Shown here: positions 1 through 19,666 of the stretch, one piece after another
Layout of the letters: every line of letters begins with the position of its first letter
How positions within the stretch are numbered: the stretch's first letter is position 1
IMG/VR virus record: IMGVR_UViG_3300020215_000148
Coordinates: 1-21,694 of that record
From: a virus
Direction: 5' to 3' (one strand)
Length of the DNA stretch: 21,694 nucleotides
The notes under the pieces: model-generated
What the model was told of the DNA's origin: nothing
The model's database searches: none
Seen by the model: the letters and a program-made list of their open reading frames with translations, nothing else
Program-made: the position numbers and the translations under genes

Positions 1-91
1 AAAAATCAAGTCCACCTATCTGGATAAGATAGATGGACTTGTGTCCACTAGCCTTTAGCTCGACAATCTTATCGAGAGTTAGTGATTCCAT
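1..91 (-). CDS. Partial tail-assembly-chaperone-like protein (3' end outside the window)
   Basis: An open frame starts at ATG 91-89 and runs 30 codons off the left edge. It begins MESLTLDKIVELK and continues through GHKSIYLIQIGGLDF. The last part resembles residues of the 118-residue chaperone candidate at 334-690 (GYEPLYTKIAGKEF, followed there by VYRALER): both have G, aromatic or His, I/L-Y, I, G and acidic-F in register, with one gap. The ATG lies four bases past the start of the stop codon of the 79-residue gene, so translation is probably coupled. No Shine-Dalgarno site is visible. A competing ATG at 95-93, in the TAATG overlap, gives only eight residues. I infer a second chaperone-family gene, but only the N-terminus can be seen. 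An inverted repeat at 8-40 lies inside this frame. Confidence 0.6.
   Translation of the reverse strand, partial: MESLTLDKIVELKASGHKSIYLIQIGGLDF
8..40 (-). repeat. 14-bp inverted repeat, terminator-like, inside a coding frame
   Basis: The arms 8-21 and 27-40 pair over 14 positions, with one G-U pair in the minus-strand RNA and a 5-base loop. On the minus strand the hairpin is followed by GATTTTT, which runs into the window edge. By shape this is an intrinsic terminator. However, the partial reading frame at 1-91 passes straight through it and the T run encodes Phe. It may be a true terminator with a fortuitous reading frame, a regulatory RNA structure inside a gene, or chance. Confidence 0.55.
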
Positions 92-94
92 CCA

Positions 95-334
95 TTAGAT
101 CATGTGAAGTTTCACATCCCACGTTAAGTCCTCAACACCACCAGAGATTTCAATCTTCTGCACACAGCCTATCTTAGTAAGATTACCATTACTATCTTTA
201 GTATAAACAGTGCTCTCTAATGGGGTATCTCCCTTGATCACTAGACACATACTTTCGAAGTCAATCCTTTGAGGACTAAACTTCAAAACAATGGGATCAT
301 TACTGCCCATTTCATAAACAGGTGGAGTCTTCAT
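95..334 (-). CDS. Small hypothetical tail-region protein (79 aa)
   Basis: The family is not recognised. The product is 79 residues, beta-rich in appearance, with one cysteine. Its start overlaps the stop of the upstream chaperone candidate by one base (TAATG), so it is probably translated by reinitiation. Residues 4-13 (TPPVYEMGSNDP, approximately) resemble the APVYTMGSADP segment of the tail tube at 2285-2962: P, V, Y, M, G, S, D and P are identical without gaps. After that the match fades. This may be a fragment of a tube-like fold or chance. The position between two chaperone-like genes suggests a role in tail assembly. I checked for a -1 frameshift joining it to the preceding gene and found no convincing slippery heptamer. 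Confidence 0.75.
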   Translation of the reverse strand: MKTPPVYEMGSNDPIVLKFSPQRIDFESMCLVIKGDTPLESTVYTKDSNGNLTKIGCVQKIEISGGVEDLTWDVKLHMI

Positions 335-690
335 TATAGTTTGATCGTTTGAATCTCGGGTCCTGCAAATCCAGAATCAGCCATAATCATTTCACATACC
401 GCTTGAATAGAGCCTGCAGGCAGCTTTTCAATCGGCTGACTAGAATAGACTAGGCAGACTTTAAGAATCTCTTCGAGTTCTTGTTCTGCTACTTCTGCCT
501 TCTCAAGGTCTGTCTTAGCAGCTTCCATCGATTGGTTGCGAGCTTTGACAAGAGCTCTCCACTCCGCTCTTTCAAGCGCACGGTATACGAATTCTTTACC
601 CGCGATCTTCGTGTATAGCGGTTCATAGCCTTCTGCCTTTGCATTTTCGGCAGCTGCCTTAGCAGCATCACTTACAGTTACCTCAGTCAT
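334..690 (-). CDS. Putative tail assembly chaperone
   Basis: The 118-residue protein has a helical, charged N-terminus. The segment KEFVYRALERAEWRAL follows at about residues 32-47, and the C-terminus carries LPAGSIQAVCEMIMADSGF at about 90-108. The pairing of an aromatic-Y-R-x-L-x-R-x-E-W segment with a downstream LPAG ... I ... SGF block is typical of the chaperones encoded between tail tube and tape measure in contractile-tailed phages. These bind the tape measure protein before tube polymerisation. The ATG is preceded at a short distance by AGGAG, and the stop codon TAG of the upstream gene is part of that site. The assignment rests on position and motif recognition. The tape measure gene is not in the window and would be expected further left. 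Confidence 0.65.
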   Translation of the reverse strand: MTEVTVSDAAKAAAENAKAEGYEPLYTKIAGKEFVYRALERAEWRALVKARNQSMEAAKTDLEKAEVAEQELEEILKVCLVYSSQPIEKLPAGSIQAVCEMIMADSGFAGPEIQTIKL

Positions 691-2223: not shown

Positions 2224-2263
2224 AATAATAAAGGGCTAGGATAGTTTATTTCTACCCTAGCCC
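2224..2263 (-). terminator. Intrinsic-terminator-like hairpin after the tail tube gene
   Basis: Arms 2252-2263 and 2233-2244 form a 12-bp stem (one G-U pair in minus-strand RNA) around a 7-base loop. A T-rich run, TTTATTATT, ends exactly at the ATG of the next gene. The T run is broken by A, so partial termination or 3'-end stabilisation of the abundant tube message is more likely than full termination. Confidence 0.65.
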
Positions 2264-2284: not shown

Positions 2285-2962
2285 TTACGGCTTGTCAATC
2301 TGGCCTACGGTGAAGCCAGGAATTTCGACAGGCGGATATGCTTGCCATGGGGTAATTGCCCGAGCGATGAAGGTACAGGCTTCATCGGTCGTAATGTCAT
2401 CGATACTCATACCAGAACCGCAGTTCATGATTTCAACGCCGTGGATCTTCATCGACGCGTTGTTGCCATACTCGCTAGCAGCAGTAATGACAATCTCGAA
2501 CGGTAGAATCTGGTCATGATAGATAGGTCTAGCAAGAACCTTGTCCAGGGTAATCTGGTTCAGACCATTGTTACCAATGACAGAACCGAAAGTACCACCG
2601 GCCTTAGTCAGACCATTTAGCGTGATTGCTGGAACAGTCGCCTGTAGACCAATCACATTACTCTGACCAGCAGGTTCGTTCACCCATGCAAGGAATGCGG
2701 TATCGCCGAATGCATCAAGCATTGCTGAGCGATCGAACACCATAAAGATGATCGACCCAGCGATACCTCTTTTGCCACGTGAGAATGAACGTGGGTCAGC
2801 ACTACCCATCGTATATACAGGTGCCTTCTCTCTCTGGACAGTATAGCTGATACCCTGGATCTCACCGATTAGGTGACCTCCAAGAGTTACCATCATATCA
2901 GTACCCGAGAACGAGTTATACGTTCTTGAGTAGCTAGATAGCGTGTTTACGGGAGTTGCCAT
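2285..2962 (-). CDS. Tail tube protein
   Basis: The protein has 225 residues and is encoded directly after the tail sheath, the usual place for the tube of contractile-tailed phages. It polymerises into the inner tube through which DNA passes. Features seen: SGTDMMVTLGG at 19-29, the block REKAPVYTMGSADPRSFSRG at 44-63, and a late FEIVITA ... SIDD ... ITPW block. I recognise the middle block from major tail proteins of other contractile-tailed phages, from memory rather than a search. An excellent AGGAGG ribosome site lies just upstream of the ATG, matching a gene needed in many copies. Twelve bases separate it from the sheath gene, and a hairpin follows it. It is the best tube candidate of three related proteins in the window. 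Confidence 0.82.
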   Translation of the reverse strand: MATPVNTLSSYSRTYNSFSGTDMMVTLGGHLIGEIQGISYTVQREKAPVYTMGSADPRSFSRGKRGIAGSIIFMVFDRSAMLDAFGDTAFLAWVNEPAGQSNVIGLQATVPAITLNGLTKAGGTFGSVIGNNGLNQITLDKVLARPIYHDQILPFEIVITAASEYGNNASMKIHGVEIMNCGSGMSIDDITTDEACTFIARAITPWQAYPPVEIPGFTVGQIDKP

Positions 2963-8437: not shown

Positions 8438-9829
8438 TTAGCTATAGTTGTTATTGAAGAACGCTGACGTCACGCTGTCGTCACCCGTTAGTCCAGGTAC
8501 GAAATCACCAGTCGTGTAGCTAACCTGTAGGTTATGAGTAAAGTCAACCGTCTTACCGAGGAACACGCCCTTGATTAGTCCAGTGCCTTGACCATTGTTA
8601 ACCGTACCAAGACCATAACGCTCGCGCAGCTTAGTCTTTAGGATGTCTCTTGCGGGATCATCCCAGGTCTCAGTCATTACTTCTTCTTCTACAACCAGCA
8701 CACCCAGCTCGTTTGTGTTGCACAGAACCATGTCAGTGACGTTTTGTACCGCGTCATATGGCATGTAAGGTGTAACTACGATTCTGAATGCGTATGGGAA
8801 GATCGTCGGCATGTTAGTCATCGTCGTCGCAAGGTTCTGCGGGGACGTTACAGTGCTGTTCTGTAGCAGACCTTGCATGCCTGAGTTCTTCCACTGAGAA
8901 GCATTACCAGGCGAACCTTGGTGCATGTTCCACATTGCTGAACCATTCCAGAAGCCGAAGATCCGCTGTAGACCTTCGTCAGCGAACATCTGCCAAGCAA
9001 ATGGGTTCATGAGTAGAGTATCGGGCATGAACCCGCGCTCAATCATCTCCGCATATGCCTTGAAGAAGTCGTTCATGGTGATACCACCGTTGTACGTGCC
9101 ACCATAGCCCCGGCCACTTGTGCTTGGGTATGATGCTGACGTGTTATCGAACAGAGTGTTGGTGCCACCAGCATTCGTTAGAATCATGCTGGCGACCTTC
9201 TGCTCCTTCCAACGGATTAGAGCGCGGCCTGCCGCACGTAGGGTCATCGACATCACATCGTACAGAGAGTGCTTGATCGTCTCTTCTGAGAACTTGACCG
9301 CCACACCGCTCTTACCGATCTGTGCCACGACCTGACCTGCGAAGTCTAGGCTGCGTTCCGGGTATTCACCACCCTCTGGGATGTCAGCCGCTGTGATAGC
9401 ACCGACTGCCGGGAAGGTTAGTTGGGTACCGTGCTGATACGCAATGCGTTGAAGCAGCGGTGTCAGAACGATATTAGGTTCTAGTGCTTCCTTAACGACT
9501 TCACTTACAACCCGTGGGATCAGAAGTGGGTGGTCATTCGAGAAAGAGTCACGCATCACTTTCGTGTGCTTCGCGTCGATTTCACATAGGTCCTTGTAGG
9601 TTACGCGACCACGCTTTAGACCTGGGATTCTACCATCGTTCTTCCAGAGGTCGTAGGTCTTCTTGAGAACCTTACGGTCCTTTATAATAACCTCACGAAC
9701 ATTCTCGTCAACGTCAGACAGATCCGGGCCGTCTTCTTTGTCTTTCAGAGCCTTGATATCATCGCGCAGAGCTACGATATAGCTTGCTTGATCGGCATCA
9801 AATGCTTCTGATATTTGCTTTTGTGTCAT
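8438..9829 (-). CDS. Major capsid protein (HK97 fold)
   Basis: The protein has 463 residues. It forms the icosahedral shell. After a helical, charged N-terminal arm (residues 1 to about 100) comes a typical HK97-fold body: NIVLTPLLQRIAYQHGTQLTFP at about 119-140, GGEYPERSLDF with the following strand at about 153-180 (E-loop region), the long spine helix near 183-215, and a C-terminal A/P-domain pattern with VVTPYMPYDA and VVEEEVMTETWDDPARD. AAGGAG lies 10-12 bases before the ATG. Upstream are the protease-scaffold and a putative decoration protein, the usual head-gene order. Confidence 0.88.
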   Translation of the reverse strand: MTQKQISEAFDADQASYIVALRDDIKALKDKEDGPDLSDVDENVREVIIKDRKVLKKTYDLWKNDGRIPGLKRGRVTYKDLCEIDAKHTKVMRDSFSNDHPLLIPRVVSEVVKEALEPNIVLTPLLQRIAYQHGTQLTFPAVGAITAADIPEGGEYPERSLDFAGQVVAQIGKSGVAVKFSEETIKHSLYDVMSMTLRAAGRALIRWKEQKVASMILTNAGGTNTLFDNTSASYPSTSGRGYGGTYNGGITMNDFFKAYAEMIERGFMPDTLLMNPFAWQMFADEGLQRIFGFWNGSAMWNMHQGSPGNASQWKNSGMQGLLQNSTVTSPQNLATTMTNMPTIFPYAFRIVVTPYMPYDAVQNVTDMVLCNTNELGVLVVEEEVMTETWDDPARDILKTKLRERYGLGTVNNGQGTGLIKGVFLGKTVDFTHNLQVSYTTGDFVPGLTGDDSVTSAFFNNNYS

Positions 9830-9850
9830 TGTAGTATATGCTCCTTAAGA

Positions 9851-10717
9851 TTACAGGCGGACCAGGATCGTAAGGGCGTGGTAGCCACCAGACGAATCCG
9901 GTGCAGCATCCAGTAGCCAAGTAGGTACACCCTTCGTACCAGTGCCAGAAACACCTAGACCAGGAACAGTGTTAACTCTTTCCAGGCCTTTGAACTCTGC
10001 CTTACCAGCAGTAGTTAGGGTATATGTGGTGTCATCTTTTAGTTTGCCTGTAGTTACTGTACCGTCAGCAAACGTAATATTTGAGTAGCAACGACCTACG
10101 ACGAACCGAAGTCCTTCAGTCGTACCATCCCATGCTTGCAGTCTACCCATAAGAGTATCAACTGATGTAATCGTGCTAGTACGGCCCCACTTGTTGGCTG
10201 TCTTGCAGATTTGAACCAGCTGACCGGGCTGGATAGTTTGCTCTGCAGAAGTGATCGCAGGAATCTGGATCAGATAGTCGGTTAGAATACCGACGTTCTC
10301 ATTACGCTTATAATTAACAAACGTATTCTGCAGCATGAAAGAATAAATTCTATTGTAAACAACACCCAGCGGTGGAACAGGACCGTTTGTAATCGCTGTA
10401 GCTGTACCGCTATAGGTAACTACCGGGAAGCCCCAAGTGCTGTCATCTGATCCATAGCACATGTGGATACCGAGGTTACCGGTGTTAGTGTGAGCAGGGA
10501 AGATCTTACCTGATGCAAGACCACCAGAAGCGATACCAACAAAGGTACCTGGCATGATTACTATCGGGTCGTGGTGATTTTCATCTACCACAACCGGCGC
10601 TAGCCCAGTCCATGCTTCCATAGGAACGGCCGATGCTTGAGGTCTGACCCCCTCCATTAGTTCGCGGTATTGTACGGTGTCAACACCATAACCGCGCGGA
10701 GTACGAAAAGTTGCCAT
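9851..10717 (-). CDS. Putative capsid decoration or head structural protein
   Basis: The protein has 288 residues, is almost entirely beta-rich and low in charge, with many Gly/Thr/Val. It starts MATFRTPRGYGVDTVQYREL. A motif PIVIMPGTFVGIASGG at about 51-66 and later IPAITSAEQTIQPGQLVQI resemble small-barrel decoration modules that cap the capsid surface. It lies between the protease-scaffold and the major capsid gene, where decoration proteins are commonly encoded. TAGGAG upstream at good spacing indicates strong translation. No enzyme motif is seen. The function is inferred from context and composition. Confidence 0.65.
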   Translation of the reverse strand: MATFRTPRGYGVDTVQYRELMEGVRPQASAVPMEAWTGLAPVVVDENHHDPIVIMPGTFVGIASGGLASGKIFPAHTNTGNLGIHMCYGSDDSTWGFPVVTYSGTATAITNGPVPPLGVVYNRIYSFMLQNTFVNYKRNENVGILTDYLIQIPAITSAEQTIQPGQLVQICKTANKWGRTSTITSVDTLMGRLQAWDGTTEGLRFVVGRCYSNITFADGTVTTGKLKDDTTYTLTTAGKAEFKGLERVNTVPGLGVSGTGTKGVPTWLLDAAPDSSGGYHALTILVRL

Positions 10718-16427: not shown

Positions 16428-16616
16428 TTTAGTTATAGCGTTACGTAATACCTCACCCTTGATATATAGACGGGTAACATCATCAAATAGGATATCTTCC
16501 GCGGGCTGTACAGCAGGCGCCGTCTTGATAAACTCATTAAGTGAGTTAGGATCAAGAGAACGAAGCTGTAGCTCACGGTCTCTATTAAATGCTGGTATAC
16601 CTTTATACTCTAAAAT
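16428..16616 (-). other. In-frame N-terminal extension beginning at an ATT codon
   Basis: Upstream of ATG 16427 the same frame continues without a stop to ATT at 16616-16614. It encodes plausible protein, for example FNRDRELQLRSLDPNSL and AEDILFDDVTRLYIKGEVL. No ATG, GTG or TTG occurs in the extension, and the next stop upstream is TGA inside the terminase end. The extension fills what would otherwise be an unexplained 180-base gap in a tightly packed operon, overlapping the terminase stop by seven bases. I infer translation from AUU; a sequencing difference (ATG read as ATT) or a -1 frameshift from terminase are alternatives. Confidence 0.6.
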
Positions 16617-19600
16617 GAGCCACGGCCTCCTCTGCCTAGATCAGTTTTGCGGTTGATATTATGTTTACCGAAGTGTCGCTGTATCGCAGCACGTTCGCCA
16701 CGGGTAATAGCTCCGCGTACATTCTCTTGAGCTTGTCTAGCTTTAAAGATACTGCCTAAGTCATTATGTCCTTTACGGAGCTTGAATCCAGTATCTAGCT
16801 GGCGAGTGATAGCTGCGAGCTTCGCAGTTCCTGTATTCTCAGGACTCTTCTCCTGTACTAATGGAGAATTAAGAGCCCGCATGGCATGAGAGACATTTAC
16901 TTTAGCCATGTCAGAGAATTGCATGATAAAGCCTATAATAGAAAGCATAAAGGCAGTAAGCGTATGGTCTTCACCTTGACTATAAGTAGGCAGACCTAGA
17001 ACCGAGATACGTTCCACTGTATAGTTACGCATCTGCTGTACAAGGCCCTGAGATTTACCTTGCGCCTCACCTTCTTTAGAGGCAACCAAAATCTGAGTAT
17101 CTTCAGATACAGGTAGCTGCAGTCTACCCTCTTCTAACTGTAGTGCAGTTAGGTTAACCATGAATGGCTTAGGTGGTTTCTTAATAATCGAGCCAGTTAC
17201 AGGATCACGCATCTCAATTTGCTTATTCATAGAATAAGCAACGACCTTTTTATGAAGACCAGTAGCAGGCTGCTGCATACCAATCTTATGCATGATCTCT
17301 ACTTGGACTCGGCCGTAGCCTTCATCCACATAGACAAAGTCTAGATCATACTTATGGTTAAGCTCTAAAATACGATCAATAGCAGCATGCTGAGTAAACT
17401 GCGCGTCTTTGACTATCTCCTTTGCCAAAACTCTATATTTGCCATTCCAGAATTCTGTAACAATAATATGAACACCGTTCTTCTCACCGTTCCAGTCTAC
17501 TCCAGCAACAATTCTAGAGTGAGGACTAGATCTAGGTTGAGGCAGGCTATATTCAGCAAGCGCCTTATCAATAAGGTCGTTTCTAAATACACCGCCCTCC
17601 TGTATACCGAACTCAGCCCAGAACTCGTGCTCGAATGCTACAGAGCCCCAGTTAGTTAAGAAGAACTCCTCAGTATCCTCAGTCCACGATGGAGACTCAG
17701 CAGATATATAATGGAACTCTTTAAAGGCTAGGTTCTTGTCACAAGCCCACTGATAGAACTTATTATGAGCACCCTTTGGAGTAGATGAAGCCCATAAGCC
17801 ACAGTTAGGGTGAGAAGCAAGGATAGCCAGAATAGCTTCTAGGTCAGCGTCATCTAGATAGTCAGCTTCGTCAAGAACGATATAGTGAGCATCCTGACCT
17901 CTAATCTTGTCAGACTTAGAAGCAGACTTGCTACCAGATGAGAAACCCAGGACCTTAGATCCGTTGTTTAATTCAATGCGCTGTGGGTTCTTGGTCTTTC
18001 TTCTGATAGCAGAAGACAAGTCTGGGTTGGTTGCAATAAGACGTTCCATCTCATCAAAGATCTTAGTAACCTGAGCTTGATAAGGAGCGATAACGAGAAC
18101 CGTGTAATCAATATGAGTGAAGATAGCCCACAGGGTAAGGATGCATATAGCGGACGTCTTGCCCGTGCGCCGCCCGGCGCGTACTAACTTCTTTTGTGCT
18201 GTGCAATTATGTACTACTGCGCCATTAGCAAAAAAGTTATGCCTATCTTCTACTGTTATATCATAAACCTCTTCATCTCCAATATAATCAATAGATACGA
18301 TCTTCTGTCTGGATGAGGTCCCAAATCTACGTCGTGTACGTCTGACTCGATTATTAGCTTCGTTGATTGCAGATAATGATTCTATTTCTTTGCCATAAAT
18401 CTGACCTACTTCATCAAAGAAGTTAAGAATATCATCTACTGTCTTTATGGTAAGCTTGACAGCATTAGAGTCAGATTTTTCATAAACCTTGGAATTTATG
18501 ATCCCAAGCTTGCGAAGTAAAAGCCTATACTTCTCTAGATAGGCTTTATTGCCAGAATGCAAGGATAGCTCAGTAACACCATTATTATGAGTATATACAC
18601 AGCCATCTCCTGACCAGCAACGATTTACAAAGACGCGGAGAGCTTCTTCAGAAAACTTAAAGGCATAGTCTAGGATAGCAGCTTCTCTATCTCTCACAGC
18701 TCCAATAGCTCTTAACAATGCAGCAAATTCACCATCAGAAACTTCGACCGTCCAAGAGGTCTGTTTTTGCATTCCATTATATTCATGAGCCGGACGCTCT
18801 CTAATAATATAATGATCCTTTGGGAATCTCTTCTTAAGGCAGGCCTCAAATTCGTCTATATAGGCACGCCGTATATTACAGAAAGATGAGCCTCCGTTAT
18901 ATCTAACATAGCCATCAGTTCCAATATAGCCTAGTAGCTTAGCAAGCTCTATGTCATCAACATCTCCATATCGACTAAATCTATTCAGGACAAAAACTCG
19001 ATCACCAACAGTTAGGCCATCATCTAAAGAACGATACGAATTCTTATAAGATGGGCAGTTGTGCAGTTTATTAAGTTCACCACACTTTGACCATGAATAA
19101 ATTGGGTGGTCAGAAGTACATTCAAGTTTATCGCCATTCTCAAGTGTTATGCGATATACTTTTCGAACACCATTATTAATCCAATGGGTTACTTTTTTGG
19201 GGAAAGTTCTCCTGCCTGTTTCGTCATATGTAAGTACAGAGTCACCGACTTTAATATCTTGAATTTGACACAAACTACCATCAGATAAAAAGACATGAGT
19301 GCTACCGGACCAGCAGCTCATCATCTCTTCTTGATACCAGCGAGCCTCCCAGGCGAAGTTCTTAACGGCCCAAGCTACTGGGTCTGCATTGATCATTAGT
19401 TCTTCATACTCTTCAGGGCTAGCGAAGTCCTCAGCCTTGAGAGTCTTGAACTCATCTAGTACGTGTTTATTACATACAGGCATAAAGGGCTTCTTCGTAA
19501 GTCCCTTAGCATGTATCAATTGGTAGTATACTTCACAATGACCACATAGATCATCAAAGCCTTTACCAAATGGCTTATAGCCGGTCGACCTATAGTCACG

Positions 19601-19666
19601 TTCGGGGATGTAACGCTTGTAAAGCTTACCATCCCCAATATGTTCTGTTATCTCTATCGATGACAT
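16610..19666 (-). CDS. terL: Terminase large subunit, interrupted by an intein
   Basis: The precursor is 1018 residues; removal of the intein (118-487) leaves 648. The enzyme is the ATP-driven packaging motor and headful/cos nuclease. ATPase motifs: Walker A RAGRRTGKT (496-504), Walker B IVLDEAD (596-602), coupling motif SSTPKG (627-632). The RNase-H-like nuclease has Asp724 (AGVDW), Asp781 (VYVDEG) and Asp900 (GEDHTLTA). The N-terminus carries C41-x2-C44 ... C65-x2-H68, a probable zinc site that is not universal in this family. It starts in a TAATG overlap with the phosphoesterase gene. No small-subunit gene is recognisable in the window. Confidence 0.96.
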   Translation of the reverse strand: MSSIEITEHIGDGKLYKRYIPERDYRSTGYKPFGKGFDDLCGHCEVYYQLIHAKGLTKKPFMPVCNKHVLDEFKTLKAEDFASPEEYEELMINADPVAWAVKNFAWEARWYQEEMMSCWSGSTHVFLSDGSLCQIQDIKVGDSVLTYDETGRRTFPKKVTHWINNGVRKVYRITLENGDKLECTSDHPIYSWSKCGELNKLHNCPSYKNSYRSLDDGLTVGDRVFVLNRFSRYGDVDDIELAKLLGYIGTDGYVRYNGGSSFCNIRRAYIDEFEACLKKRFPKDHYIIRERPAHEYNGMQKQTSWTVEVSDGEFAALLRAIGAVRDREAAILDYAFKFSEEALRVFVNRCWSGDGCVYTHNNGVTELSLHSGNKAYLEKYRLLLRKLGIINSKVYEKSDSNAVKLTIKTVDDILNFFDEVGQIYGKEIESLSAINEANNRVRRTRRRFGTSSRQKIVSIDYIGDEEVYDITVEDRHNFFANGAVVHNCTAQKKLVRAGRRTGKTSAICILTLWAIFTHIDYTVLVIAPYQAQVTKIFDEMERLIATNPDLSSAIRRKTKNPQRIELNNGSKVLGFSSGSKSASKSDKIRGQDAHYIVLDEADYLDDADLEAILAILASHPNCGLWASSTPKGAHNKFYQWACDKNLAFKEFHYISAESPSWTEDTEEFFLTNWGSVAFEHEFWAEFGIQEGGVFRNDLIDKALAEYSLPQPRSSPHSRIVAGVDWNGEKNGVHIIVTEFWNGKYRVLAKEIVKDAQFTQHAAIDRILELNHKYDLDFVYVDEGYGRVQVEIMHKIGMQQPATGLHKKVVAYSMNKQIEMRDPVTGSIIKKPPKPFMVNLTALQLEEGRLQLPVSEDTQILVASKEGEAQGKSQGLVQQMRNYTVERISVLGLPTYSQGEDHTLTAFMLSIIGFIMQFSDMAKVNVSHAMRALNSPLVQEKSPENTGTAKLAAITRQLDTGFKLRKGHNDLGSIFKARQAQENVRGAITRGERAAIQRHFGKHNINRKTDLGRGGRGSF
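16626..16631 (-). promoter_or_regulatory. AGGAGG ribosome binding site before the ATT start
   Basis: AGGAGG (GAGGAGG with 16632) lies nine bases before ATT 16616. It sits within terminase codons for a Gly/Arg-rich tail (GRGGRGSF), so it could arise by coincidence. Its spacing is nonetheless right for initiation. Confidence 0.55.
18206..19315 (-). mobile_element. Intein with LAGLIDADG homing endonuclease in terL
   Basis: This 370-residue protein element self-splices from the terminase. It starts with Cys1 (C118 of the precursor; block A is CWSGSTHVFLSDG ... IKVGD). Block B is TSDH (184-187), block F VYDITVEDRHNFFANG, and the end is VVHN followed by Cys488 as the +1 residue. These are the residues of a standard class 1 intein. 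LAGLIDADG motifs lie at 241-254 (LAKLLGYIGTDGYV, Asp251) and about 343-357 (with WSGDG, Asp354), so the endonuclease looks intact. The insertion is eight residues before Walker A. Sampled by hand, bases 18241-18300 have 19 G/C of 60, against 26 of 60 in flanking bases 17881-17940, consistent with separate origin. Confidence 0.95.

Follow-up and report, generated by a model that had tools for sequence, protein, structure and literature searches.

Terminators inside coding regions and attenuators controlled by ribosomes are both known kinds of element. RNA 3′ ends internal to ORFs have reportedly been mapped in Escherichia coli at intrinsic (Rho-independent) terminators lying within reading frames. 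The element described here is like these in that a stem-loop followed by a U tract lies within coding sequence; unlike them, it concerns one gene, in which it is kept across divergent phages by synonymous and compensatory change, and its termination is inferred. In the pil1 leader, according to the accessible part of the report, a translating ribosome destabilises a premature terminator (PMC3894217). Compared with what that part describes, our stem is likewise reachable by a ribosome on the same transcript, but there is no short leader peptide, the stem lies inside the regulated structural gene and the ribosome effect is inferred.

For phage tails, the available portion of the source states that assembly of long tails requires a fixed excess of the G over the GT chaperone, and that lambda G/GT uses a programmed −1 frameshift, with an excess of G over GT of about 30:1 being needed (PMC5009743). 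Judged against that portion, the element studied here sits at the corresponding point of the tail operon and would meet the same need for more G than GT, but lambda relies on translational recoding of one gene pair, whereas here there are separate genes and a putative transcription signal. A two-gene tail chaperonin is described for Bacillus phage 0305phi8-36 (Hardies et al. 2007, PMC2147016). As far as the part of that paper at hand allows comparison, our phages resemble it in having adjacent paralogous chaperone genes past the tail-tube genes and before the tape measure, without frameshift, and a second chaperone gene with weak ribosome binding; they differ in that one gene lies between the pair and the tape measure there and none here. 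No terminator in the chaperone pair is mentioned in that part of the paper (PMC2147016), and none in a tail-chaperone gene was described in the open-licence literature searched.

The stretch of DNA analysed (the window) is an entire viral contig and record of 21,694 bases, with every head and tail gene on the minus strand; no record overlapping the window end was found when viral contigs were scanned for exact matches. Chap2, the second (GT-like) tail-assembly-chaperone gene, is represented by its incomplete 5′ end (1–91, minus strand), recognised by homology to L002/L034 and L003/L036. Translation of these 91 bases up to the contig end gives MESLTLDKIVELKASGHKSIYLIQIGGLDF, which aligns with the N terminus of a 201-aa protein in L002 (63% of 30 residues) and with that of a protein of ∼208 aa in L003 (47%). 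Chap1, the first (G-like) chaperone gene (334–690, minus strand, 118 aa), is homologous to L002 7286–7648, and three successive tail-tube-like genes lie at 698–1456, 1456–2223 and 2285–2962 (minus strand, 698–2962 overall); these paralogues in series number two or three by profile matches in other loci. After the first tube gene an intergenic terminator-like hairpin (2233–2263, minus strand) was found, as in L002, and a scored terminator is present there in 28 of 69 loci; we regard it as context for stepwise termination. Between the two chaperone genes the window has a small ORF of 79 aa (95–334, minus strand), for which no family was found; a small ORF is also present in L036 (99 aa, 9598–9894) and not in the other six near relatives. 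Elsewhere in the window, a strong hairpin followed by TTTCTCC lies directly past the major capsid gene (8423–8379, minus strand), and the large terminase gene (16610–19666, minus strand) contains an intein with a LAGLIDADG endonuclease (Pfam matches Intein_splicing 127–487, LAGLIDADG_3 344–421 and Terminase_6N 497–645).

In the nearest relatives, the gene order is sheath, three tail-tube paralogues, chap1 (∼120 aa), chap2 (∼200 aa) and a long gene, which is presumed to be the tape measure from its position and length only. Pfam and PHROGs searches gave no named family for chap1 or chap2; their assignment as chaperones is based on position, paralogy and fold. Aligned with hhalign, the chap1 family corresponds to the N-terminal half of chap2 (96.2%, E 2e-9), and the pair is present in most of 81 loci. 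A structure model of the L034 chap2 protein (mean pLDDT 72, pTM 0.47) matched 3fgx, an uncharacterised protein (Z 10.7, 90 aligned, rmsd 2.9). It also matched 2ob9, a tail assembly chaperone from HK97 (Z 5.3, 80 aligned, rmsd 4.0). Annotated relatives are Acinetobacter phage ME3, Bacillus phage KLEB27-3 and Moorella phage MTATph1, and the annotation of the ME3 chap1 counterpart states similarity to the tail chaperonin of phage 0305phi8-36. The G/GT arrangement of forms is present, with a short and a long form sharing a common domain, the long form being extended C-terminally, immediately upstream of the presumed tape measure; the frameshifted long form of the lambda type was not met, as there are two separate genes with the shared domain in each.

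A DNA-level search for relatives among annotated phages gave none, nor did single-protein scans with the 118-aa and 252-aa proteins. Relatives were gathered via the tail-tube protein and its alignment, giving 31 loci first, and a second collection comprised the best 80 of 491 matching viral loci plus 14 genome loci. The 115-locus set spans 1.39 Mb and was scanned on both strands; it counts one contig twice (L008 and L078) and contains some near-identical phages obtained from different samples. Counts over 77 genes omit loci without exactly two chaperone matches, and also exact duplicates of the gene's first 198 bases (for the terminator score) or 150 bases (for the strong-hairpin count). KLEB27-3, MTATph1 and ME3 are excluded from the 81-locus position count, the isolate phages being examined apart. 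The terminator score combines stem and U tract with a threshold of 0.

On the minus strand of the window, bases 41..27 pair with 21..7 in a 15-pair stem with one G–U pair, closed by a 5-base loop (26..22). The initial annotation had reported a hairpin at 8–40 with a 14-bp stem, a 5-base loop and a T run, which is correct within one pair. The hairpin occupies codons 17–30 of chap2, in frame; its 5′ arm (27–41, minus strand) carries the codons for KSIYL and part of H, and the codons aligned with its 3′ arm (7–21, minus strand) form, in relatives, the 5′ arm of a conserved downstream hairpin. Both arms encode residues conserved in homologues; the frame is therefore real and the hairpin lies within a genuine gene, so that the option of a fortuitous frame, which the same annotation had left standing, fails. 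In a 60-nt fold the hairpin reached −24.4 kcal/mol (z = −4.9), and none of 200 dinucleotide shuffles was equally stable. When HKSIYLIQIGGLDF was recoded synonymously with the protein fixed, 1 of 5,000 recodings folded as well. Among 45-nt hairpins on the gene strand of the window it ranks fourth, three others being slightly more stable, hence the fold alone is no proof of function. An Rfam search of the window found no family. The stable stem with G+C pairs and the short loop expected of an intrinsic terminator are present in the window and in relatives. The sequence after the stem, ATTTTT (1–6, minus strand), is the start of a U tract truncated by the contig end: five T are seen before the contig stops, thus the U tract of an intrinsic terminator is seen incompletely.

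Each of the seven nearest relatives examined, L034 to L040, has a strong hairpin, always at the same codons (about 26–36), in a segment encoding xG(L/R)(D/E)xxx(R/K)PLT. This is ∼10 codons downstream of the window's hairpin, a position that coincides with the end of the window's contig or lies beyond it; the window's 3′ arm shares codons with the relatives' 5′ arm, and the partner half of that fold lies beyond the contig end. For each relative, between 0 and 8 of 5,000 synonymous recodings with the protein fixed folded as well. Two-sided changes occur in 5 of 8 outer pairs, the outer pairs are formed in 98.2% of cells versus 83.2% after shuffling, and none of 500 shuffles reached the covariation score. 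In the alignment, for example, a Leu codon in the first arm is partnered by AGG or AAG in the second, and an Arg codon at that place by CGC or CGG. In these seven phages the hairpin is favoured by synonymous codon choice and kept by compensatory change, as the initial annotation had proposed to check. Their U tracts are modest, and only L036 among them passes the terminator score.

The chap2 site also stands out along the operon. When 1,138 aligned codon columns from six tail genes were scanned, for which at least six of the seven loci had to be present, it was the top site by a wide margin, with a mean z of −4.33 versus −2.48 for the next best. Our first synonymous-shuffle pass, with 40 shuffles per window of sequence, was noisy and gave isolated low z values elsewhere, mostly in tube genes; single-window z below −4 is also found at other sites, above all in tube genes, and only averages over the seven loci separate the chap2 site from these. 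For the first tail-tube gene the mean synonymous-shuffle z in seven related loci was −0.67, below the other tail genes, with single windows below −5, which may reflect either codon bias or further RNA structure.

When 68 homologous frames were scanned, the strong hairpins near the gene start fell into roughly three registers, counted in codons from the RPL-type motif: about −22 (L004, L041, L045, L049 and L114, among others), about −13 (the window, L005, L023 and L112) and about −5 (the seven nearest relatives, L042, L007, L081 and L086). Many of these frames have no strong early hairpin, or have their best hairpin elsewhere. By a single rule, a strong hairpin within about the first 50 codons was found in 23 of 77 chap2 genes, leaving 54 without one; the figure was 3 of 77 for chap1 and 5 of 68 for the next gene. 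For the upstream register six loci were compared: all 30 cells of the five outer pairs are paired, and two of the five pairs have changed on both sides. The window's hairpin is either the −13 register element or a further or substitute fold, in which the 3′ arm shares sequence with the usual 5′ arm; relatives show no upstream fold comparable to it that might act as a mutually exclusive antiterminator. For the window's own hairpin, a function like that of its relatives' hairpins is an inference.

Terminator calls in the 115 loci numbered 106 on the gene strand and 30 on the other. Twenty-five of the 106 fall inside an ORF, and 9 of these 25 in early chap2; several of the 16 other intragenic calls directly follow the end of a tube or capsid gene, and here an overcalled start may make an intergenic site look intragenic. 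The early chap2 score exceeded 0 in 9 of 77 genes versus 0.12 expected after synonymous shuffling, and chap1 scored as a terminator in 0 of 77 versus 0.03 expected; 68 of the 77 chap2 genes do not reach the terminator score. The nine cases represent fewer independent lineages, since L045, L046 and L049 are related, as are L041 and L044. In each of the nine loci, stem and tract jointly were matched by 0–15 of 5,000 synonymous recodings. A textbook stem plus seven T is present in L041, L044, L045 and L114, with 14 pairs in L041 and 13 pairs in L114. When hairpins were selected on the stem only, the following U tract averaged 2.21 in early chap2 (n = 26), versus 0.68 later in chap2 (n = 7) and 0.64 across the other tail genes (n = 22; early chap2 enrichment, p 7e-7). 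Among the 81 chaperone loci, terminator calls numbered none in chap1, nine early in chap2 and eight at or just past the chap2 end. In the latter eight (L016, L064, L069, L071, L072, L075, L096 and L115) the terminator lies before the next gene, with none inside the start of chap2. In the cultured phage KLEB27-3 a terminator (score 22.4) occupies the space separating chap1 from chap2; the ME3 hairpin (z −5.9) lacks a U tract, and no such element was seen on examination of MTATph1.

With respect to translation, the nine scored stems lie 26–79 nt past the first possible chap2 start codon, and the chap2 start is usually within about 20 nt of the chap1 stop. One hallmark of an attenuator is present in the nine loci, the stem overlapping translated sequence within reach of a translating ribosome. 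Shine–Dalgarno pairing, as the median over seven loci, was weak for chap2 at −0.6 kcal/mol; chap1 had −3.5, the next gene −3.9 and the first tube gene −10.8.

Complementary codons, such as those for Gly and Pro, may follow from the protein sequence by chance, and the window hairpin would then be one of several functionless stems. The window itself offers some ground for this, as three of its other 45-nt stems are more stable and its nearest relatives use another exact register. The case against chance is also weaker when only the stem in the window is considered (1 of 5,000 recodings). However, recodings that preserve the protein almost never fold as well, and compensatory changes, the column scan and the 9 observed terminators against 0.12 expected would remain unaccounted for; chance is strongly disfavoured for the family, and we consider it quite improbable overall. 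A conserved hairpin with another RNA role, such as an RNase processing site, a protector of the 3′ end of the upstream transcript or an early ribosome brake, is harder to set aside, with the U tract being incidental Leu–Phe coding. Strong stems with a poor tract in L035, L038, L042, L007, L086 and L088, and the ME3 stem without a tract, would suit such a role. It remains unlikely in our judgement, given that U tracts are enriched after stems selected on stability alone, that four loci combine a textbook stem with seven T, and that other members have terminators just after chap2 or between chap1 and chap2.

Tail chaperones are, in the part of the source at hand, the classical phage frameshifting site (PMC5009743), and some tracts hold seven T, so that, by analogy with classical tail-chaperone genes, the hairpin might stimulate either ribosomal frameshifting or transcriptional slippage at the T run. 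Both other frames close 0–17 codons past the tract in the nine scored loci, however, and a shift would thus yield no longer product; moreover, the seven nearest relatives lack a long T run and the common domain is already in both genes. This role was rejected on the alternative-frame stops after the tract, and we hold it very unlikely. The inverted repeat adjoins the contig end, as might be expected of an assembly fold-back artefact, and it could also be a palindrome bound by protein at the DNA level; little credence, the least we give to any reading, can be attached to either. A fold-back is disfavoured by the conserved residues encoded by both arms, which are imperfect copies of each other. 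A DNA palindrome is disfavoured by the G–U pairs, of which there is at least one in 16 of 18 stems examined, and by the folding energies, the sense strand folding better than the antisense in 16 of 18. In this comparison the slice taken for L005 missed the stem, and the corrected slice gave −19.9 for sense and −11.0 for antisense.

The in-frame structure, the compensatory changes, the U tract in the family and the position are shown by the comparisons above, and they are probably explained by a conserved intrinsic terminator within the first ∼40 codons of chap2, leaky and perhaps sensitive to translation, which would lower transcription of the tail genes that follow. The initial suggestion of a terminator or attenuator inside a gene, placed between the tail-tube genes and the tape measure region, hence gains support from the comparative data, with the caveat that the register in the window (codons 17–30) is not that of the seven nearest relatives (about codons 26–36). 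No transcript data exist, and actual termination, leakiness, gating by translation and an effect on protein ratio are all inferred. In the simplest model, RNA polymerase, having transcribed the sheath, tube and chap1 genes, would meet the element and some fraction would stop, so that the GT-like chaperone, the tape measure and later tail genes would be transcribed less than the preceding genes; the terminator would be leaky and would keep chap2, the tape measure and what follows below the level of the chap1 and tube genes. A ribosome that had already started on chap2 would be expected to unfold the stem and polymerase would then pass, which would make the element a translation-sensitive attenuator; in a stronger model, reinitiation on chap2 may gate the terminator. 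More tentatively, and with rather more doubt than belief, we propose that in large myophages with a two-gene chaperone an in-frame intrinsic terminator early in the GT-like gene replaces the lambda frameshift and sets the ratio of G to GT to tape measure through transcription, being gated by whether ribosomes that complete chap1 reinitiate on chap2.

In phages with a two-gene chaperone and no frameshift, the means of setting the ratio has been left open, and a conserved terminator in the second gene would offer an answer. If true, this would show with unusual clarity how synonymous and compensatory change can keep a terminator inside a structural gene, and the chap2 element gives a precise site for RNA 3′-end mapping and reporter tests. 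That the hairpin is re-made with different letters in related phages suggests that it serves the metering of downstream tail genes.
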